Source: Blastomussa wellsi
Taxonomy: Eukaryota > Cnidaria > Anthozoa > Scleractinia > Plerogyridae
DNA: 64,000 nt
Direction: 5' to 3'
Assembly (NCBI GenBank): GCA_947652115.1
Contig: OX393562.1
Span: 11,436,646-11,500,645, forward strand
Part shown: piece after piece, positions 8,551 to 64,000 of the stretch
Numbering within the stretch: the first letter of the stretch is position 1
How the letters are laid out: the number at the start of each line of letters is the position of its first letter
The notes under the pieces: generated by a model
Database searches by the model: none
What the model was told of the DNA's origin: nothing
Seen by the model: only the letters and a program-made list of their open reading frames with translations
Position numbers and translations under genes: made by a program

Positions 8551-8862
8551 AAAAATCTAATACTTTCAAGAAGTTTGAAAGAGCCTTTCAATGGAAAATC
8601 TGTGAAAATTTCCGACTGCTGCGCATTTAGTCTATTTTAGACCGTGCCTGGCTGCTGGGTATTTGGCCACAGCTTGCCAATAAGTGGGGAGAGGGCTTGG
8701 GCCCCCAGAACCCTTCCCTAGATCTGTCACTGATTAATTTCCGACTTTGTGCCATAATTTCGTATTCCGTTTATTTTCTTTCACCTTCCAAATCTCTTAG
8801 TGCTAATACTTTTCGAAGAAAGAGCAGGCTTCAGTGTGTTTAGCACTGCTGGCTGCTACAAG

Positions 8863-12225: not shown

Positions 12226-15200
12226 GAACACGAAAGCTGTATGTTTACACAAACTTGAATACAAAGTCAGCTTCTGGTCCTTCTGGAATTGTTTGCTCCC
12301 AACAAAGTCTGACCAATTAGGGCATAAACCTTCAGATTTTGTAAGCATTGTCACTTGCATTGCTGGGGATTTCGGAGTACAACTTGTAGCATAATGCATG
12401 AGATGCCAGAAGGGAACAAATTCCAAACGGCATGAATGTGACCCGTATATTGTTTTCTGAAAAGCAGCTGAACTGCCTGGCAGACTCTAAAAACATTAAA
12501 ATTGGTTTATTCACTGCACTTGTTATGAATTTAATTAGATTACTATGAAGTTTCCGATTTTTATTTTATTTCTGTTTTACACTATGCTGGTGACCTCTTT
12601 TGTTTGTCGAGCACAGGACAATATCTGCAACAGAAAACAGCATGGCTGAGCACTGTGGCTAAAAATGTTGGACTGATGATCAATGCAAGTAAGAACAAAG
12701 TTATGATGTAAAAGAAGGAATAAACAAGGCAAGGCATGAATTTGCCTCACTCAGGCTTACCTGGAACACTATTAAAATCTCTGAAAACCAGGGTAAGGAT
12801 TTTAAATTCAATGCCAAGGCTGTGTTGTCATACGTTTCAGAATGTTGAAAAACAACATGGAGATTTCCAGGAAGATCAGGGTGTTTATCCATAAATGCCT
12901 CTGATTTATCTTGCACAGATGGTGAAAGAATGTCTGAAATGCTGAAGTTAGGGATATCTTTGAACAGGATGACATGGCTGAATTGACCATGTTGAAATAG
13001 TGTTGGGTTTAGCAAAAGTCACTTTATTTTGACAATTTTACAAGATCTATTTCTTCGCTAACAATTAAAATTAAATTTGAACAGTTGTCCAGGGTTTGTA
13101 CAGGTCATGAAAAACCTGGAAAGTCTTGGAATTTTAGAATTTCATTTTCCAGGCCTGAAAAGTCAAGGAATTAAAGTGTGGGTCATGGAAAATTATGTTT
13201 ATTAATAAAAGAGTACATAATCAATTAGGCTTTTTCGTGTAGAAATTGTCAAAAAAAATACCCAAAATGAAGATGGCTTCCAAGAAAATGCTCAAACTTA
13301 AGTTATGCAAAACTTGGATAGGTCATGGAAAAGGTCACGGAAATTTTCAAAAGCTCAAAAGAGTGTTAACCCTGTTGTCAGCTATTAGTTCAACCCATCA
13401 TGACCCTCTCTACTCAAGTACCACATGTGCAACTTTGATTTCAACGTGTTACTGTTAATATTCACAGTATAACAAACATCGTGCCAATACTGATTGCAGG
13501 GATTTGTACTTATTTGCAGAACGAGGTGCAGGTTCCAAATAATCAGCTCCACAGCAGGTAAGAGGCAGGCCATAGGCAAGCAAGATGAAGTTAGTTAGTT
13601 GAACATGTTTTAATTTTCTATATATCAGTGTTGGAAATGTGATAGTAGTATCAAAGGATACTTTTTCAGTGTGATACTTTTACATACAGCAAGGACCCTC
13701 TAACTATGAACATTTCACTTTTATTAATACCAATTTTTTTCTCTGTCTAATGAGATCTCTCTATCCAGACAAAAGGATTAGCAATTTTAACATGTAAGAA
13801 ACACTAATCCTTTATATGAGAAGCACTTATTGGATAGTTAACCCTGGGCTTGTGACCTTGTGGTGGTGGTGTGGAGCCTATACGTGCAATGACCTGGAGT
13901 GCTATGCCGGTTGGGACCAAGTCCCTGGTGGGTTCAACCATACTGGTTTGGTTGATGGATAGAGACCAGACAAAGGATAGCCAGTGGTCCTCAGGGGTGG
14001 GGGTTAGACATTCGGCTAATCACTTGACCCCATAAAAATATTATTGAAGAAACCGTAAAGAAAAAGGGCCTTCTTCGCCACTTTGGCTCAAGGAGCCAGG
14101 CAACAAGCAAATCGTTAGATAATAATAAAAAAATGTACAGAAAATTAGGTTCCCATTTTTCGAGTGTCCCAACAGTGTAAGAAACAGTATAATAAAGATC
14201 ATGCCAATACATTATGCTAATTATTATCAATATATGCGGCCAAATTGAAATCCGGCCTTGTGAAAACATGTCCTAAGCGGGCTGCAAATGACTCCAGGTG
14301 GGCCGCTTTTGCATTTTGTCCCTCGAGCTGATTGGTTCACACTCCATTATCCAGTGAATTTCAACCAATGAGATTACGTTTAGACCTTTTCCTGCTGGAA
14401 AACCATAGAGGTGTGTACAACCGAACAGCAAGCTTTGAAGTTCAGTTTCACCCTAAACTAATAGTTTTCACAGAGAATGATATGTCTATTTGATGGGAAT
14501 AAATGCAGAGAAAAAATTCGGATTTAGACTTCAGTCTATTTGATGGGAAAAATGCAGACAAAAAAATCTGGATTTGGGCTTAAAGATAGGCTAAATAGAA
14601 GCAAAAGCACAATTCAGGAGAAAGAAAGAGAGCAAGTTCTTGTCGTCTTTACCAGAAGCGAAACATCATTCACTTGATTCCTACGGTCGAGGAAAATTAG
14701 CTAGGCTGAGGTACTGCAGGAATTTACACCAAAGATTGACTGGAAAATGTAATTTTCTTAAATATTTCGATTTTGCATTGGTTCTTAACTCATTGTCGGT
14801 AATTTTCAGACACATTGTCTCTATATCTGCAACAACACAATGGTCCAGCTTGCACAGTTAATCTTATAACATTTTCAGCGCGATGTGTGTTATTTTTTGT
14901 ATTCTTGAAAACGTTATTAAATTTGGTAGTTATCAGGATGTTATTTGACCTTTTGTATTGATAATAATGATAATAAAATGGCTTTTATCTGGAATATTAT
15001 TTCTTTTCAGCCTTTACGCGGGTTTAAATCAACCATATTCCCTCAAAAAGTCATTTTATTCCCTTATTAATGGGATTTGTACTTGTTTGTAAGAAGAGGT
15101 GCAGATTCTAAATGAGCAGCCTTTATCATCCATGGCAACCAAGCATCAGGTGATATTGATGAATTTTATAAATTACAGTTACATATCAGAGAAGGAACCA

Positions 15201-15523
15201 GAAAATCTGTACAGTGTTATCAAAGAACACACTTCACTGTACAGTGGTCCTGATCTGATATATGTGGTGAGAAACATTGAAAAACAATTCAAAGAATAGT
15301 AATCTTCTCTACATCTTAATTTTGTGGACTTTGAGAAGCCTTTGATAGTATCCATCGTGGCACTTTGTGGAGTTCTAAGCACCTTATGGTATCCCAAGCA
15401 AAATCAATCAAATAACGCAAGCCTTGTGTACGAATCCCACATGGGCATCCTACATGTGGGAGATCTAACACCCATGGAAAACTATTTGGATTTGGAGGTA
15501 TGCGAGGTCATTGAAAGAACTGA
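12226..15523 (+). repeat. Array unit 1 (left edge, most diverged)
   Basis: It lacks the last ~37 bp of the unit because it ends in the deletion junction of the next short unit. Private differences include ATGATGTAAAAG (others ATGATGTGAAAG), a 5-base shorter TCTTGCACAGATGG near 12,911, a 2-base loss before GAAAACCAGG, and GTTTGCTCCC near 12,290. The accumulation of private changes at the outermost unit fits weaker homogenisation at array edges. Confidence 0.95.
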
Positions 15524-16964
15524 TAATAATAAAAAAATTTACAGAAAATTAGGTTCCCATTTTTCGAGTGTCCCAACGGTGTAAGAAACAGTATAATAAA
15601 GATCATGCCAATACATTATACTAATTATTATCAATATATGCGGCCAAATTGAAATCCGGCCTTGTGAAAACATGTCCTAAGCGGGCTGCAAATGACTCCA
15701 GGTGGGTCGCTTTTGCATTTTGTACCTCGAGCTGATTGGTTCACACTCCATTATCCAGTGAATTTCAACCAATGAGATTACGTTTAGACCTTTTCCTGCT
15801 GGAAAACCATAGAGCTGTGTACAACCGAACAGCAAGCTTTGAAGTTCAGTTTCACCCTAAACTAATAGTTTTCACAGAGAATGATATGTCTATTTGATGG
15901 GAATAAATGCAGAGAAAAAATTCGGATTTAGACTTCAGTCTATTTGATGGGAAAAATGCAGACAAAAAAGTCTGGATTTGGGCTTAAAGATAGGCTAAAT
16001 AGAAGCAAAAGCACAATTCAGGAGAAAGAAAGAGAGCAAGTTCTTGTCGTCTTTACCAGAAGCGAAACATCATTCACTTGATTCCTACGGTCGAGGAAAA
16101 TTAGCTAGGCTGAGGTACTGCAGGAATTTACACCAAAGATTGACTGGAAAATGTAATTTTCTTAAATATTACGATTTTCCATTGGTTCTTAACTCATTGT
16201 CGCTAATTTTCAGACACATTGTCTCTATATCTGCAACAACACAATGGTCCAGCTGGCACAGTTAATCTTATGACATTTTCAGCGCGATGCGTGTTATTTT
16301 TTGTATTCTTGAAAACGTTATTAAATTTGGTAGTTATCAGGATGTTATTTGACCTTGTGTATTGATAATAATGATAATAAAATGGCTTTTATCTGGAATA
16401 TTATTTCTTTTCAGCCTTTACGCAGGTTTAAATCAACCATATTCCCTCAAAAAGTCACTTTATTCCCTTATTAATGGGATTTGTACTTGTTTGTAAGAAG
16501 AGGTGCAGATTCTAAATGAGCAGCCTTTATCATCCATGGCAACCAAGCATCAGGTGATATTGATGAATTTTTTAAATTACAGTTACATATCAGTGAAGGA
16601 ACCAGAAAATCTGTACAGTGTTATCAAAGAACACACTTCACTGTACAGTGGTCCTGATCTGATATATGTGGTGAGAAACATTGAAAAACAATTCAAAGAA
16701 TAGTAATCTTCTCTACATCTTAATTTTGTGGACTTTGAGAAGCCTTTGATAGTATCCATCGTGGCACTTTGTGGAGTTCTAAGCACCTTATGGTATCCCA
16801 AGCAAAATCAATCAAATAACGCAAGCCTTGTGTACGAATCCCACATGGGCATCCTACATGTGGGAGATCTAACACCCATGGAAAACTATTTGGATTTGGA
16901 GGTATGCGAGGTCATTGAAAGAACTGAAAAAGAAACTCCACCAGCACTGCGTGAACTGAACATT
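15524..16964 (+). repeat. Array short unit S1 (deletion of ~1.94 kb)
   Basis: The reverse transcriptase fragment ends at GAAAGAACTGA and jumps straight to TAATAATAAAAAAATTTACAG, removing the second RT fragment, the TCATGGAA repeat and the leader-like segment. Two bases (GA) are shared at the join. Diagnostic variants are TTTACAG for TGTACAG, TTTTGTACCTCGAG, and AGAGCTGTGTACAAC. Confidence 0.95.
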
Positions 16965-17745
16965 GAACACGAAAGCTGTATGTTTACACAAACTTGAATA
17001 CAAAGTCAGCTTCTGGTCCGTCTGGAATTGTTTGATCCCAACAAAGTCTGACCAATTAGGGCATAAACCTTCAGATTTCAAAAGCATTGTCGCTTGCATT
17101 GCTGGGGATTTCGGAGTACAACTTGTAGCATAATGCATGAGATGCCAGAAGGGAACAAATTCCAAACGGCATGAATGTGACCCGTATATTGTTTTCTGAA
17201 AAGCAGCTGAACTGCCTGGCAGACTCTAAAAACATTAAAATTGGTTTATTCACTGCACTTGTTATGAATTTAATTAGATTACTATGAAGTTTCCGATTTT
17301 TATTTTATTTCTGTTTTACACTATGCTGGCGACCTCTTTTGTTTGTCGAGCACAGGACAATATCTGCAACAGAAAACAGCATGGCTGAGCACTGTGGCTA
17401 AAAATGTTGGAGTGATGATCAATGCAAGTAAGAACAAAGTTATGATGTGAAAGAAGGAATAAACAAGGCAAGGCATGAATTTGCCTCACTCAGGCTTACC
17501 TGGAACACTATTAAAATCTCTCAGAAAACCAGGGTAAGGATTTTAAATTCAATGCCAAGGCTGTGTTGTCATACGTTTCAGAATGTTGAAAAACAACATG
17601 GAGATTTCCAGGAAGATCAGGGTGTTTATCCATAAATGCCTCTGATTTATCTTGCGCATAAGATGGTGAAAGAATGTCTGAAATGGTGAAGTTAGGGATA
17701 TCTTTGAACAGGATGACATGGCTGAATTGACCATGTTGAAATACT
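16660..17745 (+). pseudogene. Non-LTR retrotransposon reverse transcriptase remnant (reference copy)
   Basis: Two blocks resemble a LINE-type reverse transcriptase. Block one (16,660-16,810) reads LIYVVRNIE, then VDFEK, then, after a one-base loss, FDSIHRGTLW and, after another shift, VLSTLWYP. This matches the usual VDFEKAFDSIxRxxLWxxLxxxGIP region. Block two (17,319-17,745) reads YAGDLFCLSS where YADDLxLLS is expected, then KNVGLMINASKNKVM. After a stop it continues as INKARHEFASLRLTW, RVRILNSM and (in a further frame) SRKIRVFIHKCL and IRW, the thumb-like region typical of these elements. Frameshifts, stops and the Asp-to-Gly change in the catalytic YADD make it dead. About 500 bp between the blocks is not recognisable. 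The same arrangement lies at equivalent positions of every full unit. Clade not assigned. Confidence 0.7.
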
Positions 17746-17828
17746 GTTGGGTTTAGCAAAAGTCACTTTATTTTGACAATTTTACAAGATCTGTTTCTTC
17801 ACTAACAATTAAAATTAAATTTGAACAG

Positions 17829-18096
17829 TTGTCCAGGGTTCGTACAGGTCATGAAAAACCTGGAAAGTCTTGGAATTTTAGAATTTTATTTTCCAGGCCT
17901 GAAAAGTCATGGAATTAAAGTGTGGGTCATGGAAAATTATGTTTATTAATAAAAGAGTACATAATCAATTAGGCTTTTTCATGTAGAAATTGTCAAAAAA
18001 ATACCCAAAATGAAGATGGTTTCCAAGAAAATGCTCAAACTTAAGTTATGCAAAACTTGGATAGGTTATGGAAAAGGTCACGGAAATTTTCAAAAG
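17829..18096. repeat. TCATGGAA-rich interspersed repeat within the unit (reference copy)
   Basis: The core GTACAGGTCATGAAAAACC is followed by several variants of GTCATGGAAA/GTCTTGGAATTT and TTTTCCAGGCCTG, ending near GGTTATGGAAAAGGTCACGG. Repeats built on AAACCTGGAAAGTCATGGAA are widespread in animal genomes as far as I recall; class unassigned. Confidence 0.55.
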
Positions 18097-18263
18097 CTCA
18101 AAAGAGTGTTAACCCTGTTGTCAGCTCTTAGTTCAACCCTATCATGACCCTCTCTACTCAAGTACCACATTTGTAACTTTGATTTCAACGTGTTACTGTT
18201 AATATTCACAGTATAACAAACATCGTGCCAATACTGATTGCAGGGATTTGTACTTATTTGCAG

Positions 18264-18301
18264 AACTAGGTGCAGGTTCCAAATAATCAGCTCCACAGCA
18301 G
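18264..18301 (+). other. Micro-exon-like segment with consensus splice sites (reference copy)
   Basis: A 38-base segment lies between TTTGTACTTATTTGCAG and CAG|GTAAGAGG, near-ideal acceptor and donor sites. The frame reads Val-Gln-(Val/Ile)-Pro-Asn-Asn-Gln-Leu-His-Ser. Every full unit keeps both sites. No transcript evidence exists. Confidence 0.3.
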
Positions 18302-18589
18302 GTAAGAGGCAGGCCATAGGCAAGCAAGATGAAGTTAGTTAGTTGAACATGTTTTAATTTTCTATATATCAGTGTTGGAAATGTGATAGTAGTGTCAAAG
18401 GATGCTTTTTCAGTGTGATACTTTTACATACAGCAAGGACCCTCTAACTATGAACATTTCACTTTTATTAATACCAATTTTTTTCTCTGTCTAATGAGAT
18501 CTCTCTATCCAGACAAAAGGATTAGCAATTTTAACATGTAAGAAACACTAATCCTTTATATGAGAAGCACTTATTGGATAGTTAACCCT

Positions 18590-18862
18590 GGGCTTGTCAC
18601 CTTGTGGTGGTGGTGTGGAGCCTGTACGTGCAATGACCTGGAGTGCTATGCCGGTTGGGACCAAGTCCCTGGTGGGTTCAACCATACTGGTTTGGTTGAT
18701 GGATAGAGACCAGACAAAGGATAGCCAGTGGTCCTCAGGGGTGGGGGTTGGACATTTGGCTAATCACTTGACCCCATAAAAATATTATTGAAGAAACCGT
18801 AAAGAAAAGGGGCCTTCTTCGCCACTTTGGTTCAAGGAGCCAGGCAACAAGCAAATCGTTAG
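18590..18862 (+). mobile_element. Leader-like fragment of a non-LTR retrotransposon (reference copy)
   Basis: The segment starts near CTTGTGGTGGTGGTGTGGAG and passes through GACCTGGAGTGCTATGCCGG, GGTGGGTTCAACCATACTGG and GGTCCTCAGGGGTGGGGGTT to CCGTAAAGAAAAGGGGCC. From memory this resembles the 5' leader preceding the first ORF of certain invertebrate LINEs. It lies downstream of the RT remnant in each unit, so the element order is rearranged. It is absent from the short units. Confidence 0.4.
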
Positions 18863-19074
18863 ATAATAATAAAAAAATGTACAGAAAATTAGGTTCCCAT
18901 TTTTCGAGTGTCCCAACGGTGTAAGAAACAGTATAATAAAGATCATGCCAATACATTATACTAATTATTATCAATATATGCGGCCAAATTGAAATCCGTC
19001 CTTGTGAAAACATGTCCTAAGCGGGCTTCAAATGACTCGAGGTGGGCCGCTTTTGGATTTTGTCCCTCGATCTG

Positions 19075-19113
19075 ATTGGTTCACACTCCATTATCCAGTG
19101 AATTTCAACCAAT
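19075..19113. promoter_or_regulatory. Facing pair of CCAAT boxes (reference copy)
   Basis: ATTGGT at 19,075 and AACCAAT at 19,107 form an inverted pair 32 bp apart, present in every unit including the short ones. The spacing suits paired NF-Y sites. No TATA box is evident; the downstream sequence includes the 50-bp duplication and an open frame. Promoter activity is inferred only. Confidence 0.3.
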
Positions 19114-19227
19114 GAGATTACGTTTAGACCTTTTCCTGCTGGAAAACCATAGAGGTGTGTACAACCGAACAGCAAGCTTTGAAGTTCAGTTTTACCCTAA
19201 ACTAATAGTTTTCACAGAGAATGATAT

Positions 19228-19327
19228 GTCTATTTGATGGGAATAAATGTAGAGAAAAAATTCGGATTTAGTCTTCAGTCTATTTGATGGGAAAAATGCA
19301 GACAAAAAAGTCTGGATTTGGGCTTAA
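19228..19327 (+). repeat. 50-bp internal tandem duplication (reference copy)
   Basis: Two diverged copies of GTCTATTTGATGGGAAtAAATGC... follow each other with a period of exactly 50 bp, just upstream of the 89-codon open frame. Present in all units, so it predates array growth. Confidence 0.85.
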
Positions 19328-19338
19328 AGATAGGCTAA

Positions 19339-19605
19339 ATAGAAGCAAAAGCACAATTCAGGAGAAAGAAAGAGAGCAAGTTCTTGTCGTCTTTACCAGA
19401 AGCGAAACATCATTCACTTGATTCCTACGGTCGAGGAAAATTAGCTAGGCTGAGGTACTGCAGGAATTTACACCAAAGATTGACTGGAAAATGTAATTTT
19501 CTTAAATATTACGATTTTCCATTGGTTCTTAACTCATTGTCGCTAATTTTCAGACACATTGTCTCTATATCTGCAACAACACAATGGTCCAGCTGGCACA
19601 GTTAA
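19339..19605 (+). other. Recurrent basic open frame, unknown (reference copy)
   Basis: After a stop, 88 sense codons run open in every unit with only a few residue changes. The first 50 are basic and polar (AKAQFRRKKESKF, then GRGKLARLRYCRNLHQRLTGK) and look exon-like. The rest is hydrophobic and ends SSWHS or SSLHS. There is no ATG near the start, and a possible donor (AAAAT|GTAATT) follows the basic part. It is not recognised. Conservation among tandem copies is explained by homogenisation and is not evidence of function. Confidence 0.25.
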
Positions 19606-19814
19606 TCTTATAACATTTTTAGCGCGATGTGTGTTATTTTTTGTATTCTTGAAAACGTTATTAAATTTGGTAGTTATCAGGATGTTAATTGACCTTGTGT
19701 ATTGATAATAATGATAATAAAATGGCTTTTATCTGGAATATTATTTCTTTTCAGCCTTTACGCAGGTTTAAATCAACCATATTCCCTCAAAAAGTCACTT
19801 TATTCCCTTATTAA

Positions 19815-20043
19815 TGGGATTTGTACTTGTTTGTAAGAAGAGGTGCAGATTCTAAATGAGCAGCCTTTATCATCCATGGCAACCAAGCATCAGGTGATAT
19901 TGATGAATTTTTTAAATTACAGTTACATATCAGTGAAGGAACCAGAAAATCTGTGCAGTGTTATCAAAGAACACACTTCACTGTACAGTGGTCCTGATCT
20001 GATTTATGTGGTGAGAAACATTGAAAAACAATTCAAAGAATAG
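19815..20043 (+). other. Diverged second copy of the GGGATTTGTACTT module plus 66-codon frame (reference copy)
   Basis: GGGATTTGTACTTGTTTG, then GAAGAGGTGCAGATTC, parallels GGGATTTGTACTTATTTG with GAACTAGGTGCAGGTTCC at 18,243. Here the AG acceptor is replaced by TAAG, and the frame runs 66 codons into the RT remnant (GPDLIYVVRNIE). The similar frame starts (Glu-Val-Gln-Ile and Glu-Gln/Asn-Gln) show an old internal duplication. Confidence 0.45.
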
Positions 20044-20304
20044 TAATCTTCTCTACATCTTAATTTTGTGGACTTTGAGAAGCCTTTGATAGTATCCATC
20101 GTGGCACTTTGTGGAGTTCTAAGCACCTTATGGTATCCCAAGCAAAATCAATCAAATAACGCAAGCCTTGTGTACGAATCCCACATGGGCATCCTACATG
20201 TGGGAGATCTAACACCCATGGAAAACTATTTGGATTTGGAGGTATGCGAGGTCATTGAAAGAACTGAAAAAGAAACTCCACCAGCACTGCGTGAACTGAA
20301 CATT

Positions 20305-23300
20305 GAACACGAAAGCTGTATGTTTACACAAACTTGAATACAAAGTCAGCTTCTGGTCCGTCTGGAATTGTTTGATCCCAACAAAGTCTGACCAATTAGG
20401 GCATAAACCTTCAGATTTCAAAAGCATTGTCGCTTGCATTGCTGGGGATTTCGGAGTACAACTTGTAGCATAATGCATGAGATGCCAGAAGGGAACAAAT
20501 TCCAAACGGCATGAATGTGACCCGTATATTGTTTTCTGAAAAGCAGCTGAACTGCCTGGCAGACTCTAAAAACATTAAAATTGGTTTATTCACTGCACTT
20601 GTTATGAATTTAATTAGATTACTATGAAGTTTCCGATTTTTATTTTATTTCTGTTTTACACTATGCTGGCGACCTCTTTTGTTTGTCGAGCACAGGACAA
20701 TATCTGCAACAGAAAACAGCATGGCTGAGCACTGTGGCTAAAAATGTTGGACTGATGATCAATGCAAGTAAGAACAAAGTTATGATGTGAAAGAAGGAAT
20801 AAACAAGGCAAGGCATGAATTTGCCTCACTCAGGCTTACCTGGAACACTATTAAAATCTCTCAGAAAACCAGGGTAAGGATTTTAAATTCAATGCCAAGG
20901 CTGTGTTGTCATACGTTTCAGAATGTTGAAAAACAACATGGAGATTTCCAGGAAGATCAGGGTGTTTATCCATAAATGCCTCTGATTTATCTTGCGCATA
21001 AGATGGTGAAAGAATGTCTGAAATGGTGAAGTTAGGGATATCTTTGAACAGGATGACATGGCTGAATTGACCATGTTGAAATAGTGTTGGGTTTAGCAAA
21101 AGTCACTTTATTTTGACAATTTTACAAGATCTGTTTCTTCACTAACAATTAAAATTAAATTTGAACAGTTGTCCAGGGTTCGTACAGGTCATGAAAAACC
21201 TGGAAAGTCTTGGAATTTTAGAATTTTATTTTCCAGGCCTGAAAAGTCATGGAATTAAAGTGTGGGTCATGGAAAATTATGTTTATTAATAAAAGAGTAC
21301 ATAATCAATTAGGCTTTTTCATGTAGAAATTGTCAAAAAAATACCCAAAATGAAGATGGTTTCCAAGAAAATGCTCAAACTTAAGTTATGCAAAACTTGG
21401 ATAGGTCATGGAAAAGGTCACGGAAATTTTCAAAAGCTCAAAAGAGTGTTAACCCTGTTGTCAGCTATTAGTTCAACCCCATCATGACCCTCTCTACTCA
21501 AGTACCAGATATGCAACTTTGATTTCAACGTGTTACTGTTAATATTCACAGTATGACAAACATTGTGACAATACTGATTGCAGGGATTTGTACTTATTTG
21601 CAGAACGAGGTGCAGATTCCAAATAATCAGCTCCACAGCAGGTAAGAGCCAGGCCATAGGCAAGCAAGATGAAGTTAGTTAGTTGAACATGTTTTAATTT
21701 TCTATATATCAGTGTTGGAAATGTGATAGTAGTGTCAAAGGATGCTTTTTCAGTGTGATACTTTTACATACAGCAAGGACCCTATAACTATGAACATTTC
21801 ACTTTTATTAATAGCGATTTTTTTTCTCTGTCTAATGAGATCTCTCTATCCAGACAAAAGGATTAGCAATTTTAACATGTAAGAAACACTAATCCTTTAT
21901 ATGAGAAGCACTTATTGGATAGTTAACCCTGGGCTTGTCACCTTGTGGTGGTGGTGTGGAGCCTGTACGTGAATGACCTGGAGTGCTATGCCGGTTGGGA
22001 CCAAGTCCCTGGTGGGTTCAACCATACTGGTTTGGTTGATGGATAGAGACAAGACAAAGGATAGCCAGTGGTCCTCAGGGGTGGGGGTTGGACATTCCGC
22101 TAATCACTTGACCCCATAAAAATATTATTGAAGAAACCGTAAAGAAAAGGGGCCTTCTTCGCCACTTTGGCTCAAGGAGCCAGGCAACAAGCAAATCGCT
22201 AGATAATAATAAAAAAATGTACAGAAAATTAGGTTCCCATTTTTCGAGTGTCCCAACAGTGTAAGAAACAGTATAATAAAGATCATGCCAATACATTATA
22301 CTAATTATTATCAATATATGCGGCCAAATTGAAATCCGGCCTTGTGAAAACATGTCCTAAGCGGGCTGCAAATGACTCCAGGTGGGCCGCTTTTGCATTT
22401 TGTCCCTCGAGCTGATTGGTTCACACTCCATTATCCAGTGAATTTCAACCAATGAGATTACGTTTAGACCTTTTCCTGCTGGAAAACCATAGAGGTGTGT
22501 ACAACTGAACAGCAAGCTTTGAAGTTCAGTTTCACCCTAAACTAATAGTTTTCACAGAGAATGATATGTCTATTTGATGGGAATAAATGCAGAGAAAAAA
22601 TTCGGATTTAGACTTCAGTCTATTTGATGGGAAAAATGCAGACAAAAAAATCTGGATTTGGGCTTAAAGATAGGCTAAATAGAAGCAAAAGCACAATTCA
22701 GGAGAAAGAAAGAGAGCAAGTTCTTGTCGTCTTTACTAGAAGCGAAACATCATTCACTTGATTCCTACGGTCGAGGAAAATTAGCTAGGGTGAGGTACTG
22801 CAGGAATTTACACCAAAGATTGACTGGAAAATGTAATTTTCTTAAATATTTCGATTTTCCATTGGTTCTTAACTCATTGTCGCTAATTTTCAGACACATT
22901 GTCTCTATATCTGCAACAACACAATGGTCCAGCTTGCACAGTTAATCTTATAACATTTTCAGTGCGATGTGTGTTATTTTTTGTATTCTTGAAAACGTTA
23001 TTAAATTTGGTAGTTATCAGGATGTTATTTGACCTTTTGTATTGATAATAATGATAATAAAATGGCTTTTATCTGGAATATTATTTCTTTTCAGCCTTTA
23101 CGCGGGTTTAAATCAACCATATTCCCTCAAAAAGTCATTTTATTCCCTTGTTAATGGGATTTGTACTTGTTTGTAAGAAGAGGTGCAGATTCTAAATGAG
23201 CAGCCTTTATCATCCATGGCAACCAAGCATCAGGTGATATTGATGAATTTTATAAATTACAGTTACATATCAGAGAAGGAACCAGAAAATCTGTACAGTG

Positions 23301-23644
23301 TTATCAAAGAACACACTTCACTGTACAGTGGTCCTGATCTGATATATGTGGTGAGAAACATTGAAAAACAATTCAAAGAATAGTAATCTTCTCTACATCT
23401 TAATTTTGTGGACTTTGAGAAGCCTTTGATAGTATCCATCGTGGCACTTTGTGGAGTTCTAAGCACCTTATGGTATCCCAAGCAAAATCAATCAAATAAC
23501 GCAAGCCTTGTGTACGAATCCCACATGGGCATCCTACATGTGGGAGATCTAACACCCATGGAAAACTATTTGGATTTGGAGGTATGCGAGGTCATTGAAA
23601 GAACTGAAAAAGAAACTCCACCAGCACTGCGTGAACTGAACATT
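20305..23644 (+). repeat. Array unit 3
   Basis: 3,340 bp. The left third is nearly identical to unit 2. The middle carries a one-base loss in GTACGTGAATGACC and GACATTCCGCTAAT, shared with unit 5. The right part is the GAAGGAACC-preceded-by-CAGA variant (Ser-Glu-Lys-Glu reading), shared with units 1, 6, 9, 10 and 12. Confidence 0.95.
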
Positions 23645-44100: not shown

Positions 44101-44498
44101 ATTTTATAAATTACAGTTACATATCAGAGAAGGAACCAGAAAATCTGTACAGTGTTATCAAAGAACACACTTCACTGTACAGTGGTCCTGATCTGATATA
44201 TGTGGTGAGAAACATTGAAAAACAATTCAAAGAATAGTAATCTTCTCTACATCTTAATTTTGTGGACTTTGAGAAGCCTTTGATAGTATCCATCGTGGCA
44301 CTTTGTGGAGTTCTAAGCACCTTATGGTATCCCAAGCAAAATCAATCAAATAACGCAAGCCTTGTGTACGAATCCCACATGGGCATCCTACATGTGGGAG
44401 ATCTAACACCCATGGAAAACTATTTGGATTTGGAGGTATGCGAGGTCATTGAAAGAACTGAAAAAGAAACTCCACCAGCACTGCGTGAACTGAACATT
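41159..44498 (+). repeat. Array unit 9
   Basis: 3,340 bp. Diagnostic: CAGATGTTATAAGCATTG, CTCTAATAAAAACATT, GCTGGTGATCTC and GTGTTTTCATACG, all repeated in unit 12 at +10,421 bp. The right part is copied in unit 10 at +3,336 bp. Confidence 0.95.
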
Positions 44499-47400: not shown

Positions 47401-47834
47401 CATCCATGGCAACCAAGCATCAGGTGATATTGATGAATTTTATAAATTACAGTTACATATCAGAGAAGGAACCAGAAAATCTGTACAGTGTTATCAAAGA
47501 ACACACTTCACTGTACAGTGGTCCTGATCTGATATATGTGGTGAGAAACATTGAAAAACAATTCAAAGAATAGTAATCTTCTCTACATCTTAATTTTGTG
47601 GACTTTGAGAAGCCTTTGATAGTATCCATCGTGGCACTTTGTGGAGTTCTAAGCACCTTATGGTATCCCAAGCAAAATCAATCAAATAACGCAAGCCTTG
47701 TGTACGAATCCCACATGGGCATCCTACATGTGGGAGATCTAACACCCATGGAAAACTATTTGGATTTGGAGGTATGCGAGGTCATTGAAAGAACTGAAAA
47801 AGAAACTCCACCAGCACTGCGTGAACTGAACATT
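44499..47834 (+). repeat. Array unit 10
   Basis: 3,336 bp. The left part has ACACAAAATTGAACACAAAG and GGTCCATCTGG, shared with units 11, 13 and 15. The right part matches unit 9. Confidence 0.95.
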
Positions 47835-50800
47835 GAACACGAAAGCTGTATGTTTACACAAAATTGAACACAAAGTCAGCTTCTGGTCCATCTGGAATTG
47901 TTTGATCTCAACAAAGTCTGACCAATTAGGGCATAAACCTTCAGATTTAAAAAGCATTGTCGCTTGCATTGCTGGGGATTTCGGAGTACAACTTGTAGCA
48001 TAATGCATGAGATGCCAGAAGGGAACAAATTCCAAACGGCATGAATGTGACCCGTATATTGTTTTCTGAAAAGCACCTGAACTGCCTGGCAGACTCTAAA
48101 AACATTAAAATTGGTTTATTCACTGCACTTGTTATGAATTTAATTAGATTACTATGAAGTTTCCGATTTTTATTTTATTTCTGTTTTACACTATGCTGGC
48201 GACCTCTTTGTTTGTCGAGCACAGGACAATATCTGCAACAGAAAACAGCATGGCTGAGCACTGTGGCTAAAAATGTTGGACTGATGATCAATGCAAGTAA
48301 GAACAAAGTTATGATGTGAAAGAAGGAATAAACAAGGCAAGGCATGAATTTGCCTCACTCAGGCTTACCTGGAACACTATTAAAATCTCTCAGAAAACCA
48401 GGGTAAGGATTTTAAATTCAATGCCAAGGCTGTGTTGTCATACGTTTCAGAATGTTGAAAAACAACATGGAGATTTCCAGGAAGATCAGGGTGTTTATCC
48501 ATAAATGCCTCTGATTTATCTTGCGCATAAGATGGTGAAAGAATGTCTGAAATGCTGAAGTTAGGGATATCTTTGAACAGGATGACATGGCTGAATTGAC
48601 CATGTTGAAATAGTGTTGGGTTGAGCAAAAGTCACTTTATTTTGACAATTTTACAAGATCTGTTTCTTCACTAACAATTAAAATTAAATTTGAACAGTTG
48701 TCCAGGGTTCGTACAGGTCATGAAAAACCTGGAAAGTCTTGGAATTTTAGAATTTCATTTTCCAGGTCTGAAAAGTCATGGAATTAAAGTGTGGGTCATG
48801 GAAAATGATGTTTATTAAAAGAGTACATAATCAATTAGGCTTTTTCATGTAGAAATTGTCAAAAAAAATACCCAAAATGAAGATGGTTTCCAAGAAAATG
48901 CTCAAATTTAAGTTATGCAAAACTTGGATAGGTCATGGAAAAGGTCACGGAAATTTTCAAAAGCTCAAAAGAGTGTTAACCCTGTTGTCAGCTATTAGTT
49001 CAACCCCATCATGACCCTCTCTACTCAAGTACCAGATATGCAACTTTGATTTCAACGTGTTACTGTTAATATTCACAGTATGACAAACATCGTGACAATA
49101 CTGATTGCAGGGATTTGTACTTATTTGCAGAACGAGGTGCAGATTCCAAATAATCAGCTCCACAGCAGGTAAGAGGCAGGCCATAGGCAAGCAAGATGAA
49201 GTTAGTTAGTTGAACATGTTTTAATTTCCAAACTATCAGTGTTGGAAATGTGATAGTAGTGTCAAAGGATGCTTTTTCAGTGTGATACTTTTACATAGAG
49301 CAAGGACCCTCTAACTATGAACATTTCACTTTTATTAATACCAATTTTTTTCTCTGTCTAATGAGATCTCTCTATCCAGACAAAAGGATTAGCAATTTTA
49401 ACATGTAAGAAACACTAATCCTTTATATGAGAAGCACTTATTGGATAGTTAACCCTGGGCTTGTCACCTTGTGGTGGTGGTGTGGAGCCTGTACGTGCAA
49501 TGACCTGGAGTGCTATGCCGGTTGGGACCAAGTCCCTGGTGGGTTCAACCATACTGGTTTGGTTGATGGATAGAGACCAGACAAAGGATAGCCAGTGGTC
49601 CTCAGGGGTGGGGGTTGGACATTCGGCTAATTTTCAAAATATCAGTGTTGGAAATGTGATAGTAGTGTCAAAGGATGCTTTTTCAGTGTGATACTTTTAC
49701 ATAGAGCAAGGACCCTCTAACTATGAACATTTCACTTTTATTAATACCAATTTTTTCTCTGTCTAATGAGATCTCTCTATCCAGACAAAAGGATTAGCAA
49801 TTTTAACATGTAAGAAACACTAATCCTTTATATGAGAAGCACTTATTGGATAGTTAACCCTGGGCTTGTCACCTTGTGGTGGTGGTGTGGAGCCTGTACG
49901 TGGAATGACCTGGAGTGCTATGCCGGTTGGGACCAAGTCCCTGGTGGGTTCAACCATACTGGTTTGGTTGATGGATAGAGAGCAGACAAAGGATAGCCAG
50001 TGGTCCTCAGGGGTGGGGGTTGGACATTCGGCTAATCACTTGACCCCATAAAAATATTATTGAAGAAACCGTAAAGAAAAGGGGCCTTCTTCGCCACTTT
50101 GGCTCAAGGAGCCAGGCAACAAGCAAATCGTTAGATAATAATAAAAAAATGTACAGAAAATTAGGTTCCCATTTTTCGAGTGTCCCAACGGTGTAACAAA
50201 CAGTATAATAAAGATCATGGCAATACATTATGCTAATTATTATCAATATATGCGGCCAAATTGAAATCCGGCCTTGTGAAAACATGTCCTAAGCGGGCTG
50301 CAAATGACTCCAGGTGGGCCGCTTTTGCATTTTGTCCCTCGAGCTGATTGGTTCACACTCCATTATCCAGTGAATTTCAACCAATGAGATTACGTTTAGA
50401 CCTTTTCCTGCTGGAAAACCATAGAGGTGTGTACAACCGAACAGCAAGCTTTGAAGTTCAGTTTCACCCTAAACTAATAGTTTTCACAGAGAATGATATG
50501 TCTATTTGATGGGAATAAATGCAGAGAAAAAATTCGGATTTAGACTTCAGTCTATTTGATGGGAAAAATGCAGACAAAAAATCTGGATTTGGGCTTAAAG
50601 ATAGGCTAAATAGAAGCAAAAGCACAATTCAGGAGAAAGAAAGAGAGCAAGTTCTTGTCGTCTTTACCAGAAGCGAAACATCATTCACTTGATTCCTACG
50701 GTCGAGGAAAATTAGCTAGGCTGAGGTACTGCAGGAATTTACACCAAAGATTGACTGGAAAATGTAATTTTCTTAAATATTACGATTTTCCATTGGTTCT

Positions 50801-51579
50801 TAACTCATTGTCGCTAATTTTCAGACACATTTTCTCTATATCTGTCTGCAACAACACAATGGTCCAGCTGGCACAGTTAATCTTATAACATTTTCAGCAC
50901 GATGTGTGTTATTTTTTGTATTCTTGAAAACGTTATTAAATTTGGTAGTTATCAGGATGTTATTTGACCTTGTGTATTGATAATAATGATAATAAAATGG
51001 CTTTTATCTGGAATATTATTTCTTTTCAGCCTTTACGCAGGTTTAAATCAACCATATTCCCTCAAAAAGTCATTTTATTCCCTTATTAATGGGATTTGTA
51101 CTTGTTTGTAAGAAGAGGTGCAGATTCTAAATGAGCAGCCTTTATCATCCATGGCAACCAAGCATCAGGTGATATTGATGAATTTTATAAATTACAGTTA
51201 CATATCAGTGAAGGAACCAGAAAATCTGTACAGTGTTATCAAAGAACACACTTCACTGTACAGTGGTCCTGATCTGATATATGTGGTGAGAAACATTGAA
51301 AAACAATTCAAAGAATAGTAATCTTCTCTACATCTTAATTTTGTGGACTTTGAGAAGCCTTTGATAGTATCCATCGTGGCACTTTGTGGAGTTCTAAGCA
51401 CCTTATGGTATCCCAAGCAAAATCAATCAAATAACGCAAGCCTTGTGTACGAATCCCACATGGGCATCCTACATGTGGGAGATCTAACACCCATGGAAAA
51501 CTATTTGGATTTGGAGGTCTGCGAGGTCATTGAAAGAACTGAAAAAGAAACTCCACCAGCACTGCGTGAACTGAACATT
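47835..51579 (+). repeat. Array long unit 11 (405-bp internal duplication)
   Basis: 3,745 bp mosaic: the left third equals unit 10 (offset 3,336), and the remainder equals unit 8 (offset 10,421), including its 405-bp duplication at 49,224-50,034. Confidence 0.95.
49224..50034 (+). repeat. 405-bp tandem duplication in unit 11
   Basis: Same join and variants as in unit 8, 10,421 bp away, so one duplication event was copied rather than repeated. Confidence 0.9.
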
Positions 51580-54500
51580 GAACACGAAAGCTGTATGTTT
51601 ACACAAACTTGAATACAAAGTCAGCTTCTGGTCCGTATGGAATTGTTTGATCCCAACAAAGTCTGACCAATTAGGGCATAAACCTTCAGATGTTATAAGC
51701 ATTGTCGCTTGCATTGCTGGGGATTTCGGATTACAACTTGTAGCATAATGCATGAGATGCCAGAAGGGAACAAATTCCAAACGGCATGAATGTGACCCGT
51801 ATATTGTTTTCTGAAAAGCACCTGAACTGCCTGGCAGACTCTAATAAAAACATTAAAATTGGTTTATTCACTGCACTTGTTATGAATTTAATTAGATTAC
51901 TATGAAGTTTCTGATTTTTATTTTATTTCTGTTTTACACTATGCTGGTGATCTCTTTTGTTTGTTGAGCACAGGACAATATCTGCAACAGAAAACAGCAT
52001 GGCTGAGCACTGTGGCTAAAAATGTTGGACTGATGATCAATGCAAGTAAGAACAGAGTTATGATGTGAAAGAAGGAATAAACAAGGCAAGGCATGAATTT
52101 GCCTCACTCAGGCTTACCTGGAACACTATTAAAATCTCTCAGAAAACCAGGGTAAGGATTTTAAATTCAATGCCAAGGCTGTGTTTTCATACGTTTCAGA
52201 ATGTTGAAAAACAACATGGAGATTTCCAGGAAGATCAGGGTGTTTATCCATAAATGCCTCTGATTTATCTTGCGCATAAGATGGTGAAAGAATGTCTGAA
52301 ATGCTGAAGTTAGGGATATCTTTGAACAGGATGACATGGCTGAATTGACCATGTTGAAATAGTGTTGGGTTGAGCAAAAGTCACTTTATTTTGACAATTT
52401 TACAAGATCTGTTTCTTCACTAACAATTAAAATTAAATTTGAACAGTTGTCCAGGGTTCGTACAGGTCATGAAAAACCTGGAAAGTCTTGGAATTTTAGA
52501 ATTTCATTTTCCAGGCCTGAAAAGTCATGGAATTAAAGTGTGGGTCATGGAAAATGATGTTTATTAAAAGAGTACATACTCAATTAGGCTTTTTCATGTA
52601 GAAATTGTCAAAAAAAATACCCAAAATGAAGATGGTTTCCAAGAAAATGCTCAAATTTAAGTTATGCAAAACTTGGATAGGTCATGGAAAAGGTCACGGA
52701 AATTTTCAAAAGCTCAAAAGAGTGTTAACCCTGTTGTCAGCTATTAGTTCAACCCCATCATGACCCTCTCTACTCAAGTACCAGATATGCAACTTTGATT
52801 TCAACGTGTTACTGTTAATATTCACAGTATGACAAACATCGTGACAATACTGATTGCAGGGATTTGTACTTATTTGCAGAACGAGGTGCAGATTCCAAAT
52901 AATCAGCTCCACAGCAGGTAAGAGGCAGGCCATAGGCAAGCAAGATGAAGTTAGTTAGTTGAACATGTTTTAATTTTCAAACTATCAGTGTTGGAAATGT
53001 GATAGTAGTGTCAAAGGATGCTTTTTCAGTGTGATACTTTTACATAGAGCAAGGACCCTCTAACTATGAACATTTCACTTTTATTAATACCAATTTTTTT
53101 CTCTGTCTAATGAGATCTCTCTATCCAGACAAAAGGATTAGCAATTTTAACATGTAAGAAACACTAATCCTTTATATGAGAAGCACTTATTGGATAGTTA
53201 ACCCTGGGCTTGTCACCTTGTGGTGGTGGTGTGGAGCCTGTACGTGCAATGACCTGGAGTGCTATGCCGGTTGGGACCAAGTCCCTGGTGGGTTCAACCA
53301 TACTGGTTTGGTTGATGGATAGAGACCAGACAAAGGATAGCCAGTGGTCCTCAGGGGTGGGGGTTGGACATTCGGCTAATCACTTGACCCCATAAAAATA
53401 TTATTGAAGAAACCGTAAAGAAAAGGGGCCTTCTTCGCCACTTTGGCTCAAGGAGCCAGGCAACAAGCAAATCGTTAGATAATAATAAAAAAATGTACAG
53501 AAAATTAGGTTCCCATTTTTCGAGTGTCCCAACGGTGTAACAAACAGTATAATAAACATCATGCCAATACATTATACTAATTATTATCAATATATGCGGC
53601 CAAATTGAAATCCGGCCTTGTGAAAACATGTCCTAAGCGGGCTGCAAATGACTCCAGGTGGGCAGCTTTTGCATTTTGTCCCTCGATCTGATTGGTTCAC
53701 ACTCCATTATCCAGTGAATTTCAACCAATGAGATTACGTTTAGACCTTTTCCTGCTGGAAAACCATAGAGGTGTGTACAACCGAACAGCAAGCTTTGAAG
53801 TTCAGTTTCACCCTAAACTAATAGTTTTCACAGAGAATGATATGTCTATTTGATGGGAACAAATGCAGAGAAAAAATTCGGATTTAGACTTCAGTCTATT
53901 TGATGGGAAAAATGGAGACAAAAAATCTGGATTTGGGCTTAAAGATAGGCTAAATAGAAGCAAAAGCACAATTCAGGAGAAAGAAAGAGAGCAAGTTCTT
54001 GTCGTCTTTACCAGAAGCGCAACATCATTCACTTGATTCCTACGGTCGAGGAAAATTAGCTAGGCTGAGGTACTGCAGGAATTTACACCAAAGATTGACT
54101 GGAAAATGTAATTTTCTTAAATATTTCGATTTTCCATTGGTTCTTAACTCATTGTCGGTAATTTTCAGACACATTGTCTCTATATCTGCAACAACACAAT
54201 GGTCCAGCTTGCACAGTTAATCTTATAACATTTTCAGCGCGATGTGTGTTATTTTTTGTATTCTTGAAAACGTTATTAAATTTGGTAGTTATCAGGATGT
54301 TATTTGACCTTTTGTATTGATAATAATGATAATAAAATGGCTTTTATCTGGAATATTATTTCTTTTCAGCCTTTACGCGGGTTTAAATCAACCATATTCC
54401 CTCAAAAAGTCATTTTATTCCCTTATTAATGGGATTTGTACTTGTTTGTAAGAAGAGGTGCAGATTCTAAATGAGCAGCCTTTATCATCCATGGCAACCA

Positions 54501-54919
54501 AGCATCAGGTGATATTGATGAATTTTATAAATTACAGTTACATATCAGAGAAGGAACCAGAAAATCTGTACAGTGTTATCAAAGAACACACTTCACTGTA
54601 CAGTGGTCCTGATCTGATATATGTGGTGAGAAACATTGAAAAACAATTCAAAGAATAGTAATCTTCTCTACATCTTAATTTTGTGGACTTTGAGAAGCCT
54701 TTGATAGTATCCATCGTGGCACTTTGTGGAGTTCTAAGCACCTTATGGTATCCCAAGCAAAATCAATCAAATAACGCAAGCCTTGTGTACGAATCCCACA
54801 TGGGCATCCTACATGTGGGAGATCTAACACCCATGGAAAACTATTTGGATTTGGAGGTATGCGAGGTCATTGAAAGAACTGAAAAAGAAACTCCACCAGC
54901 ACTGCGTGAACTGAACATT
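51580..54919 (+). repeat. Array unit 12
   Basis: 3,340 bp. It repeats unit 9 at an offset of 10,421 bp with no difference noticed by eye. Confidence 0.95.
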
Positions 54920-57900: not shown

Positions 57901-58221
57901 AAAATCTGTACAGTGTTATCAAAGAACACACTTCACTGTACAGTGGTCCTGATCTGATATATGTGGTGAGAAACATTGAAAACAATTCAAAGAATAGTAA
58001 TCTTCTCTACATCTTAATTTTGTGGACTTTGAGAAGCCTTTGATAGTATCCATCGTGGCACTTTGTGGAGTTCTAAGCACCTTATGGTATCCCAAGCAAA
58101 ATCAATCAAATAACGCAAGCCTTGTGTACGAATCCCACATGGGCATCCTACATGTGGGAGATCTAACACCCATGGAAAACTATTTGGATTTGGAGGTATG
58201 CGAGGTCATTGAAAGAACTGA
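54920..58221 (+). repeat. Array unit 13
   Basis: The left ~370 bp equals units 10 and 11. It changes near 55,290 (CTTTTGTTTG, then GGACAGTATCTGC) to a variant shared with unit 15. Private changes include TTGATGGGTAGAAACC near 56,650 and AAAGATTGGCTGG near 57,432. It ends in the short-unit junction. Confidence 0.95.
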
Positions 58222-59660
58222 TAATAAAAAAAAATTTACAGAAAATTAGGTTCCCATTTTTCGAGTGTCCCAACGGTGTAAGAAACAGTATAATAAAGAT
58301 CATGCCAATACATTATACTAATTATTATCAATATATGCGGCCAAATTGAAATCCGGCCTTGTGAAAACATGTCCTAAGCGGGCTGCAAATGACTCCAGGT
58401 GGGTCGCTTTTGCATTTTGTACCTCGAGCTGATTGGTTCACACTCCATTATCCAGTGAATTTCAACCAATGAGATTACGTTTAGACCTTTTCCTGCTGGA
58501 AAACCATAGAGCTGTGTACAACCGAACAGCAAGCTTTGAAGTTCAGTTTCACCCTAAACTAATAGTTTTCACAGAGAATGATATGTCTATTTGATGGGAA
58601 TAAATGCAGAGAAAAAATTCGGATTTAGACTTCAGTCTATTTGATGGGAAAAATGCAGACAAAAAAGTCTGGATTTGGGCTTAAAGATAGGCTAAATAGA
58701 AGCAAAAGCACAATTCAGGAGAAAGAAAGAGAGCAAGTTCTTGTCGTCTTTACCAGAAGCGAAACATCATTCACTTGATTCCTACGGTCGAGGAAAATTA
58801 GCTAGGCTGAGGTACTGCAGGAATTTACACCAAAGATTGACTGGAAAATGTAATTTTCTTAAATATTACGATTTTCCATTGGTTCTTAACTCATTGTCGC
58901 TAATTTTCAGACACATTGTCTCTATATCTGCAACAACACAATGGTCCAGCTGGCACAGTTAATCTTATGACATTTTCAGCGCGATGTGTGTTATTTTTTG
59001 TATTCTTGAAAACGTTATTAAATTTGGTAGTTATCAGGATGTTATTTGACCTTGTGTATTGATAATAATGATAATAAAATGGCTTTTATCTGGAATATTA
59101 TTTCTTTTCAGCCTTTACGCAGGTTTAAATCAACCATATTCCCTCAAAAAGTCACTTTATTCCCTTATTAATGGGATTTGTACTTGTTTGTAAGAAGAGG
59201 TGCAGATTCTAAATGAGCAGCCTTTATCATCCATGGCAACCAAGCATCAGGTGATATTGATGAATTTTTTAAATTACAGTTACATATCAGTGAAGGAACC
59301 AGAAAATCTGTACAGTGTTATCAAAGAACACACTTCACTGTACAGTGGTCCTGATCTGATATATGTGGTGAGAAACATTGAAAACAATTCAAAGAATAGT
59401 AATCTTCTCTACATCTTAATTTTGTGGACTTTGAGAAGCCTTTGATAGTATCCATCGTGGCACTTTGTGGAGTTCTAAGCACCTTATGGTATCCCAAGCA
59501 AAATCAATCAAATAACGCAAGCCTTGTGTACGAATCCCACATGGGCATCCTACATGTGGGAGATCTAACACCCATGGAAAACTATTTGGATTTGGAGGTA
59601 TGCGAGGTCATTGAAAGAACTGAAAAAGAAACTCCACCAGCACTGCGTGAACTGAACATT
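58222..59660 (+). repeat. Array short unit S2 (same deletion as S1)
   Basis: Same GAACTGA|TAATAA junction as S1 and the same linked variants (TTTACAG, TTTTGTACCTCGAG, AGAGCTGTG), 42.7 kb from S1. One A is missing in GAAAACAATTC near 59,380, which keeps the RT-upstream frame open. Confidence 0.95.
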
Positions 59661-62600: not shown

Positions 62601-63000
62601 GAATTTTATAAATTACAGTTACATATCAGAGAAGGAACCAGAAAATCTGTACAGTGTTATCAAAGAACACACTTCACTGTACAGTGGTCCTGATCTGATA
62701 TATGTGGTGAGAAACATTGAAAAACAATTCAAAGAATAGTAATCTTCTCTACATCTTAATTTTGTGGACTTTGAGAAGCCTTTGATAGTATCCATCGTGG
62801 CACTTTGTGGAGTTCTAAGCACCTTATGGTATCCCAAGCAAAATCAATCAAATAACGCAAGCCTTGTGTACGAATCCCACATGGGCATCCTACATGTGGG
62901 AGATCTAACACCCATGGAAAACTATTTGGATTTGGAGGTATGCGAGGTCATTGAAAGAACTGAAAAAGAAACTCCACCAGCACTGCGTGAACTGAACATT
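59661..63000 (+). repeat. Array unit 14 (chimeric)
   Basis: It follows unit 2 at an offset of 42,696 bp up to about 62,500, including GGACATTTGGC and GTTAATTGACC. By about 62,606 it has switched to the unit 12 variant (AATTTTATAAATTAC, CATATCAGAGAAGG) at an offset of 8,081 bp. Confidence 0.95.
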
Positions 63001-64000
63001 GAACACGAAAGCTGTATGTTTACACAAAATTGAACACAAAGTCAGCTTCTGGTCCATCTGGAATTGTTTGATCTCAACAAAGTCTGACCAATTAGGGCAT
63101 AAACCTTCAGATTTAAAAAGCATTGTCGCTTGCATTGCTGGGGATTTCGGAGTACAACTTGTAGCATAATGCATGAGATGCCAGAAGGGAACAAATTCCA
63201 AACGGCATGAATGTGACCCGTATATTGTTTTCTGAAAAGCACCTGAACTGCCTGGCAGACTCTAAAAACATTAAAATTGGTTTATTCACTGCACTTGTTA
63301 TGAATTTAATTAGATTACTATGAAGTTTCCGATTTTTATTTTATTTCTGTTTTACACTATGCTGGCGACCTCTTTTGTTTGTCGAGCACAGGACAGTATC
63401 TGCAACAGAAAACAGCATGGCTGAGCACTGTGGCTAAAAATGTTGGACTGATGATCAATGCAAGTAAGAACAAAGTTATGATGTGAAAGAAGGAATAAAC
63501 AAGGCAAGGCATGAATTTGCCTCACTCAGGCTTACCTGGAACACTATTAAAATCTCTCAGAAAACCAGGGTAAGGATTTTAAATTCAATGCCAAGGCTGT
63601 GTTGTCATACGTTTCAGAATGTTGAAAAACAACATGGAGATTTCCAGGAAGATCAGGGTGTTTATCCATAAATGCCTCTGATTTATCTTGCGCATAAGAT
63701 GGTGAAAGAATGTCTGAAATGCTGAAGTTAGGGATATCTTTGAACAGGATGACATGGCTGAATTGACCATGTTGAAATAGTGTTTGGTTTAGCAAAAGTC
63801 ACTTTATTTTGACAATTTTACAAGATCTGTTTCTTCACTAACAATTAAAATTAAATTTGAACAGTTGTCCAGGGTTCGTACAGGTCATGAAAAACCTGGA
63901 AAGTCTTGGAATTTTAGAATTTTATTTTCCAGGCCTGAAAAATCATGGAATTAAAGTGTGGGTCATGGAAAATTATGTTTATTAATAAAAGAGTACATAA
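63001..64000 (+). repeat. Array unit 15 (partial, cut by window end)
   Basis: The first 1,000 bp match unit 13 at an offset of 8,081 bp, including GGACAGTATCTGC, GTGTTTGGTTTAGC and CTGAAAAATCATGG. Confidence 0.97.

Follow-up and report, generated by a model that had tools for sequence, protein, structure and literature searches.

A 319.8-kb macrosatellite array of 3.3-kb units in the coral Blastomussa wellsi with a shared 129-bp sequence at both edges

The human macrosatellites DXZ4, D4Z4, and RS447 are described, in the available part of one source (PMC3018141), as having units of 3, 3.3, and 4.7 kb in tens to ~100 copies at one or two chromosomal places. Satellites can also derive from transposable elements (TEs), for which the accessible sections of a review (PMC6947457) name the LINE-1-derived PROsat of Phodopus and the CR1-derived centromere repeats of chicken. 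In Porites corals, a 188-nt satellite in intergenic regions is reported in the available text of a third source (PMC10236652). Here, we describe a tandem array in the scleractinian coral Blastomussa wellsi, located in a 64,000-nt stretch of contig C2 (GenBank OX393562.1; C2:11436646-11500645; hereafter the window) in an assembly of 367.8 Mb and 124 contigs. The array shares units of several kb, tens of copies, and a head-to-tail arrangement with DXZ4, D4Z4, and RS447, as far as the part at hand portrays them (PMC3018141). With PROsat and the chicken CR1 repeats it shares TE fragments made tandem, for which unequal crossing-over is proposed in the sections mentioned (PMC6947457). The Porites satellite is likewise a tandem satellite in a coral genome, with a unit that is short and intergenic in the text cited (PMC10236652). 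The human macrosatellites belong to a different lineage from this anthozoan array, which is known from its sequence alone. Among the literature matches listed for macrosatellite and satellite topics, whose texts were partly available, we found no comparable macrosatellite array in a cnidarian. The array is a macrosatellite and thus of a known kind; new are its sequence and its unusual lineage. An earlier note on this DNA had stated that no such family is described, which may hold for the sequence, but not for the kind.

We consider it likely that the locus is a non-coding macrosatellite that was founded by a crossover at 129-bp repeats and has been kept alike by exchange between its units. BLASTN of a reference unit (U2, which defines phase 1-3340) against the window revealed a head-to-tail array from position 12226 to the window end, with a period of ~3.34 kb; 14 units are complete, and the window ends 1,000 bp into the fifteenth. 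The array start, period, and copy number (at least 14) of the earlier note were thereby reproduced.

12226 to 64000, + strand: macrosatellite array, the left end of a 319.8-kb array (BLASTN of the unit, unit alignment, continuation outside the window).
12226, 16965, 20305, 23645, 26986, 30329, 33669, 37414, 41159, 44499, 47835, 51580, 54920, 59661, and 63001, + strand: unit starts in the window (BLASTN, alignment).
16965 to 20304, + strand: reference unit U2, phase 1-3340.

BLASTN did not find the unit sequence in window bases 1-12,225, and no unit match was obtained in the 40 kb left of the window. Counted by kb bin, no repeated 20-mer started before 12001, and from there on 630-1000 of each 1000 positions were repeated. 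In the fetched sequence, the array extended from C2:11,448,871 to C2:11,768,673, a span of 319.8 kb, and is hence larger than the macrosatellite that the earlier note had correctly proposed. Foreign DNA makes up ~39 kb of the span (two Polinton-like elements and a retroelement-bearing stretch), and ~280 kb are AT-rich (~63%) tandem DNA. We read 66 unit starts in sequence and estimated 84-90 units in total; the number is an estimate because the ~57 kb from C2:11,700,646 to ~11,758,000 were only sampled, with 13 of 13 points matching the unit. Unit lengths were mostly 3,328-3,345 bp, with variants including 2,354, 2,400, 3,247, 3,288, 3,578, 3,745, and 4,741 bp. Since long near-identical arrays are hard to assemble for copy number, and this one is known from an assembly and not from reads, an artefact might have inflated a few units into many. 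This is, however, highly improbable: the units carry their own variants and private insertions and differ in length, both edges run into non-array sequence, and assembly errors at such loci would collapse units sooner than inflate them.

A genome search with a 241-bp piece of the unit yielded 99 candidates, of which 40 were scored, and all 40 lay in this array. By our estimate, most of the 99 would come from the array itself, and further copies elsewhere are possible among the 59 unscored ones. Sampling of the contig at 52 points gave 14 matches (2/20, 11/12, and 1/20 in three samplings), all inside the array; the remaining 38 points comprised 4 in foreign DNA inside the array span and 34 outside the span. 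Confinement to one or two chromosomal places, as stated for human macrosatellites in the source text at hand (PMC3018141), thus holds here for the 40 scored matches of the 99 candidates. These counts also bear on a centromeric or pericentromeric satellite of this chromosome, which the amount and AT-richness of the tandem DNA, its multi-unit blocks, and its large inserted elements would suit. We regard this as very unlikely, as a shared centromere satellite would be expected on many chromosomes, in contrast to the single array found among the 40 scored of the 99 candidates; the position at 11.4-11.8 Mb of the 36.2-Mb contig is uninformative by itself.

The near identity of units claimed in the earlier note was borne out, with units 0-2.1% apart. 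Pairwise substitutions ranged from 0 to 1.83% between the complete window units and reached 2.11% when the 1,000-bp piece was included. In the unit alignment, U9 and U12 were identical, U7 and U8 differed by 0.03%, and U8 and U11 by 0.13%. Further right in the array, units of 2,400 and 3,336 bp alternate in part. Several internal changes are common to more than one unit, i.e., a 405-bp duplication (three window units of 3,745 bp), a ~1.4-kb duplication (two window units of 4,739 and 4,741 bp), and a ~936-bp deletion. The two kinds of longer window unit were not mentioned in the earlier note.

37414 to 54919, + strand: recent multi-unit block copying with a spacing of 10,421 bp, spanning the U9/U12 and U8/U11 pairs (repeat spacing, alignment).
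35056 to 35870, + strand: 405-bp internal tandem duplication in U7, junction over TAAT; also at 38801-39615 (U8) and 49222-50036 (U11) (TRF, junctions).
15522 to 16964, + strand: U1 carries phase 1898-3340 a second time; U13 has a junction nearly identical to this one (58220-59660).

The units are mosaics of one another. The four-gamete test, applied to 82 informative sites of the 14 complete window units, failed for 754 of the 3,321 site pairs; the minimum number of exchanges (Rmin) was 14, and r2 fell from 0.30 to 0.05 with distance. Over 66 units, mean divergence was 1.03%; the median was 0.63% between adjacent units and 1.51% between units 50 apart, with a rise that was not strictly stepwise. 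Within blocks, divergence ranged from 1.35% in units 1-6 to 0.43% in units 57-65, and the leftmost unit, U1, carried 19 private variants, the most of 65 units. Mosaics, multi-unit blocks, and the divergence gradient point to unequal exchange and turnover. Where the earlier note had left the choice between recent expansion and continuous homogenisation, the mosaic units and the gradient favour continuing exchange. The strong exchange between units differs from coral tandem gene arrays, in which gene conversion is very rare according to the available text (PMC10236652).

Evidence on the origin comes from the edges. Counted from the left edge, the first array base is phase 1 and the last is phase 129; 129 bp are hence common to both edges.

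12226 to 12354, + strand: left-edge copy of phase 1-129, which also closes the right edge with 5 differences (L082:1546-1674).

Unequal crossing-over between 129-bp direct repeats on either side of a 3.2-kb segment would produce such edges, and we infer that the 129 bp are a candidate for the direct repeat of the founding crossover. The locus would already have been full of dead transposons, i.e., a fragment of a long interspersed nuclear element (LINE) reverse transcriptase (RT), a nested element resembling a miniature inverted-repeat transposable element (MITE), and unassigned DNA. Tandem duplication would have followed, with unequal crossing-over between the two 129-bp repeats as its most likely cause. 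Unequal sister-chromatid exchange and gene conversion may subsequently have altered the copy number and kept the copies alike, with multi-unit blocks, the 405-bp and ~1.4-kb internal duplications, and the ~936-bp deletion being copied along. Maintenance would have been passive, without a sequence-specific function. In its accessible sections, the review of TE-derived satellites holds that flanking repeats of 5-10 bp cannot explain satellites with larger units and mentions that something similar has been proposed for maize repeats longer than 700 bp (PMC6947457). Against this background, founding at 129 bp is worth testing. In comparison with the TE-derived satellites covered in those sections, the 129-bp edge overlap here fits a crossing-over origin for a 3.3-kb unit (PMC6947457).

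The array has no coding capacity beyond chance and no detected constraint. The longest stop-to-stop frame in the window array, junctions included, was 120 aa, and the longest frames of 65 units cut at phase 1 were 87-120 aa; mononucleotide shuffles of the unit averaged 95 aa, with a 95th percentile of 132. Protein coding was rejected on these grounds, and an intact LINE reading frame was found neither in the window array nor in the 65 units as cut. This differs from D4Z4 and RS447, whose units each hold a reading frame for a known protein, and resembles DXZ4 with only short frames, as given in the part of the source available (PMC3018141). Rfam gave no match at gathering scores and ARAGORN no tRNA in the window, by which a known structured RNA or tRNA was rejected as the identity of the unit. 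The 291 variable sites were evenly spread along the unit (p 0.34 for the largest gap, p 0.29 for bin variance); a stretch at phase 3040-3274 that looked conserved in the 14 complete window units (p 0.003) no longer did so once 65 units were compared (p 0.34).

CpG content of the array was low, with an observed/expected (o/e) ratio of 0.38-0.40, compared with 0.94 across 18 contig samples of 301 bp each. In the flanks, the ratio was 0.44 and 0.52 in two of five bins on the left and 0.65 in the short right flank. One segment of the unit stands out.

18955 to 19814, + strand: ~860-bp CpG-richer segment (CpG o/e 0.71 vs. 0-0.56 in the rest of the unit), containing the CCAAT pair.

A functional array, transcribed or chromatin-organising like D4Z4, DXZ4, or loci resembling ribosomal DNA, would be uniform because its RNA or a binding site matters. 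The length of the array (~85 units) and its single location among the scored matches would agree with this, as would the excess of G over C on the + strand in every array bin and the CpG depletion of most of the unit, in which the CpG-richer segment might act as an unmethylated promoter for a transcribed body that is methylated. The segment may equally be a younger insertion, however, and CpG-poor stretches also occur in the left flank. Together with frames no longer than in shuffles, the negative Rfam and tRNA results, and the even spread of variable sites, this renders a functional array unlikely in our judgement. We consider the ~860-bp segment possibly a later insertion. The CCAAT pair pointed out in the earlier note is present in the sequence and attributable to chance: an equally close pair occurred in 86% of 500 dinucleotide shuffles of the unit, and a promoter based on it was rejected.

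Several points weigh against a non-coding macrosatellite founded at 129-bp repeats and homogenised by exchange. Copy number rests on one assembly. The constraint test is of limited power, and the CpG depletion of the array could mean methylation with transcription or silencing, the left flank being partly as low. A coincidence of the edges within 129 bp of phase has a chance of ~4% in this direction and 8% in either, and the two edge copies, 5 differences apart, are no closer to each other than to core units (3-8 differences for the right edge, 4-9 for U1). Given this chance of 4-8% and the lack of closer kinship between the edge copies, the founding repeat is a lead and not proof. The remaining points limit the evidence from the right-edge unit, which differs by 2.56-3.51% from the units covering the same stretch (64 by our count), while the median difference between these is 0.72% and the maximum 1.79%. 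The right-edge unit is an outgroup, which agrees with turnover and which a single burst alone would not give. However, 7.8 kb of foreign DNA separate it from the other units and may have prevented exchange with them; the last unit to the left of this DNA is ordinary (median 0.78% vs. 0.87% among others). Of the 32 sites at which the right-edge unit departs from the majority, the best sharer, U6, has 7, and U1 is outside the top ten.

These observations also touch on one recent amplification burst with little later homogenisation. Low overall divergence is in line with a burst, as is the unit left of the right-end foreign stretch, which is no more diverged than the rest, and the divergence of the isolated right-edge unit could stem from the foreign DNA. 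It is opposed by the mosaic structure of the units, the copied multi-unit blocks, and the drop in within-block divergence from 1.35% to 0.43%, and we hold a single burst to be quite improbable. As the right-edge divergence has two readings, the case for turnover rests mainly on mosaics, blocks, and gradient.

The composition of the unit was described in the earlier note as a rearranged LINE patchwork. Two stretches carry reverse transcriptase-like sequence.

20614 to 20972, + strand: degenerate C-terminal part of a LINE reverse transcriptase with broken frames (example in U3; sub-threshold RVT_1 and DUF6451).
20020 to 20210, + strand: possible upstream part of the same reverse transcriptase, frameshifted (example in U2; by eye from translations).

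The first consists of adjoining pieces matching RVT_1 (E = 0.0019, 20614-20787) and DUF6451 (E = 0.00085, 20772-20972), both below the Pfam curated cut-offs, and the 120-aa frame of U4 matched the same two families in Pfam (E 0.003 and 0.0036, respectively). For this frame, a search admitting only proteins of similar length gave no homologous protein, and comparison of the RT piece with solved structures returned only chance-level chains. The second stretch, at phase ~3060-3250, is frameshifted and recognised by eye only; a frame tested there had no RT match in Pfam, just a chance-level immunoglobulin-like match (E 0.05). When the unit is read across its junction, this stretch precedes the other two RT pieces, with ~0.4-0.5 kb of other DNA between them. 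These sub-threshold matches suggest that the unit holds a degenerate LINE reverse transcriptase that is in order when read circularly. Since the pieces follow in normal order across the junction, the apparent rearrangement would result largely from the choice of phase. The LINE origin itself applies to only part of the unit, and the rest, beyond the LINE piece and a nested MITE-like element, is unassigned DNA. For the leader-like fragment of the earlier note, Pfam gave no match to the single 44-aa frame tested. Scanning viral contigs for exact 30-mers was unproductive. The vole complex repeats MS3 and MS4 are reportedly long repeats that are mosaics of transposon pieces; they belong to a vole genome, whereas the present array occupies one coral locus as far as scored.

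17834 to 18117, + strand: nested MITE-like element of 284 bp, phase 870-1153 (example in U2), with ends CAGGGTT/AACCCTG and TTGTC on both sides, holding TCATGGAA motifs.
18234 to 18291, + strand: 58-bp module, copy 1 (diverged internal repeat; repeat search 76%, alignment score).
19807 to 19864, + strand: 58-bp module, copy 2 (repeat search 76%, alignment score).

The TCATGGAA repeat reported earlier was confirmed, with 40 occurrences in the window vs. 4.5 expected; 39 of the 40 lie in the array, in the phase range of the MITE-like element. The inverted ends of this element are exact, but a 7-bp inverted repeat alone was matched by 81% of 300 shuffles and is at chance level, so that the flanking TTGTC is the better sign of a MITE-like element. 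The two copies of the 58-bp module are 76% identical, and their local alignment score of 113 compares with a maximum of 74.5 in 200 mononucleotide shuffles. Just past the right array edge, at L082:1901-2009, is a third relative (~70%) with a 28-codon open stretch and splice-like ends. These ends prompted an exon reading of the module and its relative, which was dropped: the 28-codon stretch is weak, Pfam gave nothing, and a genome search with 396 bp gave a single match beyond itself, on C19, which leaves the module uncovered.

Two related elements of ~15.5 kb interrupt the array in the same orientation less than 3 kb apart (C2 ~11,567,357-11,582,866 and 11,585,544-11,601,166), the first with 328-bp terminal inverted repeats of 92% identity. 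We take them to be Polinton-like, going by their size, inverted ends, and a packaging-ATPase-like motif. Array sequence on the two sides of each element overlaps, by 7 bp at the first and 6 bp at the second. Stretches related to the Polinton-like elements also occur within 40 kb left of the window, forming a local cluster. The third foreign stretch (C2:11,759,664-11,767,485; 7.8 kb, ~3 kb of which were only sampled) contains retroelement frames that are presumably DIRS-like. A 416-aa frame in this foreign stretch near the right end has 219 relatives; those named among the 120 listed include proteins of Nematostella vectensis (43%), Oculina patagonica (70%, covering half of the query), and a metagenome bin with a gammaproteobacterial label. 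We take these relatives to indicate an anthozoan host, probably a stony coral. Smaller insertions were seen within units. An element of 180 bp with CAGGGCTGTCATTAA-like inverted ends occupies the same phase in two units (L009:4650-4829 and L007, ext 129608-129787 in continued window coordinates) and, for this reason, was probably inserted once and then copied by exchange. In one unit (L004, ext 99130-99430), a 300-bp insertion resembles, by eye, a tRNA-derived short interspersed nuclear element. The left flank holds a 0.7-kb imperfect palindrome (window 7882-8577; 70% self-complementary over 714 columns), likely a fold-back element or an inverted transposon pair, as well as an inverted pair of 127 bp and 88% identity (410-536/5140-5264) and a second pair (751-837/1955-2042).

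In the literature examined, as far as its texts were available, macrosatellites are mammalian and the birth of kilobase-unit arrays is unsettled. The interest of the present array lies in its lineage and its readable edges, which hint at how such arrays begin and stay uniform. With both edges and most units readable, it allows one to test directly whether an array was born by crossing-over at a short repeat and homogenised later. A further reading, for which we see somewhat less than an even chance, is that the 129-bp edge repeats are birth marks of founding by unequal crossing-over at a short repeat and that the graded divergence records turnover, at a single locus that also gathers Polinton-like elements. 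If true, an array with 3.3-kb units could be founded by unequal crossing-over at a short repeat.

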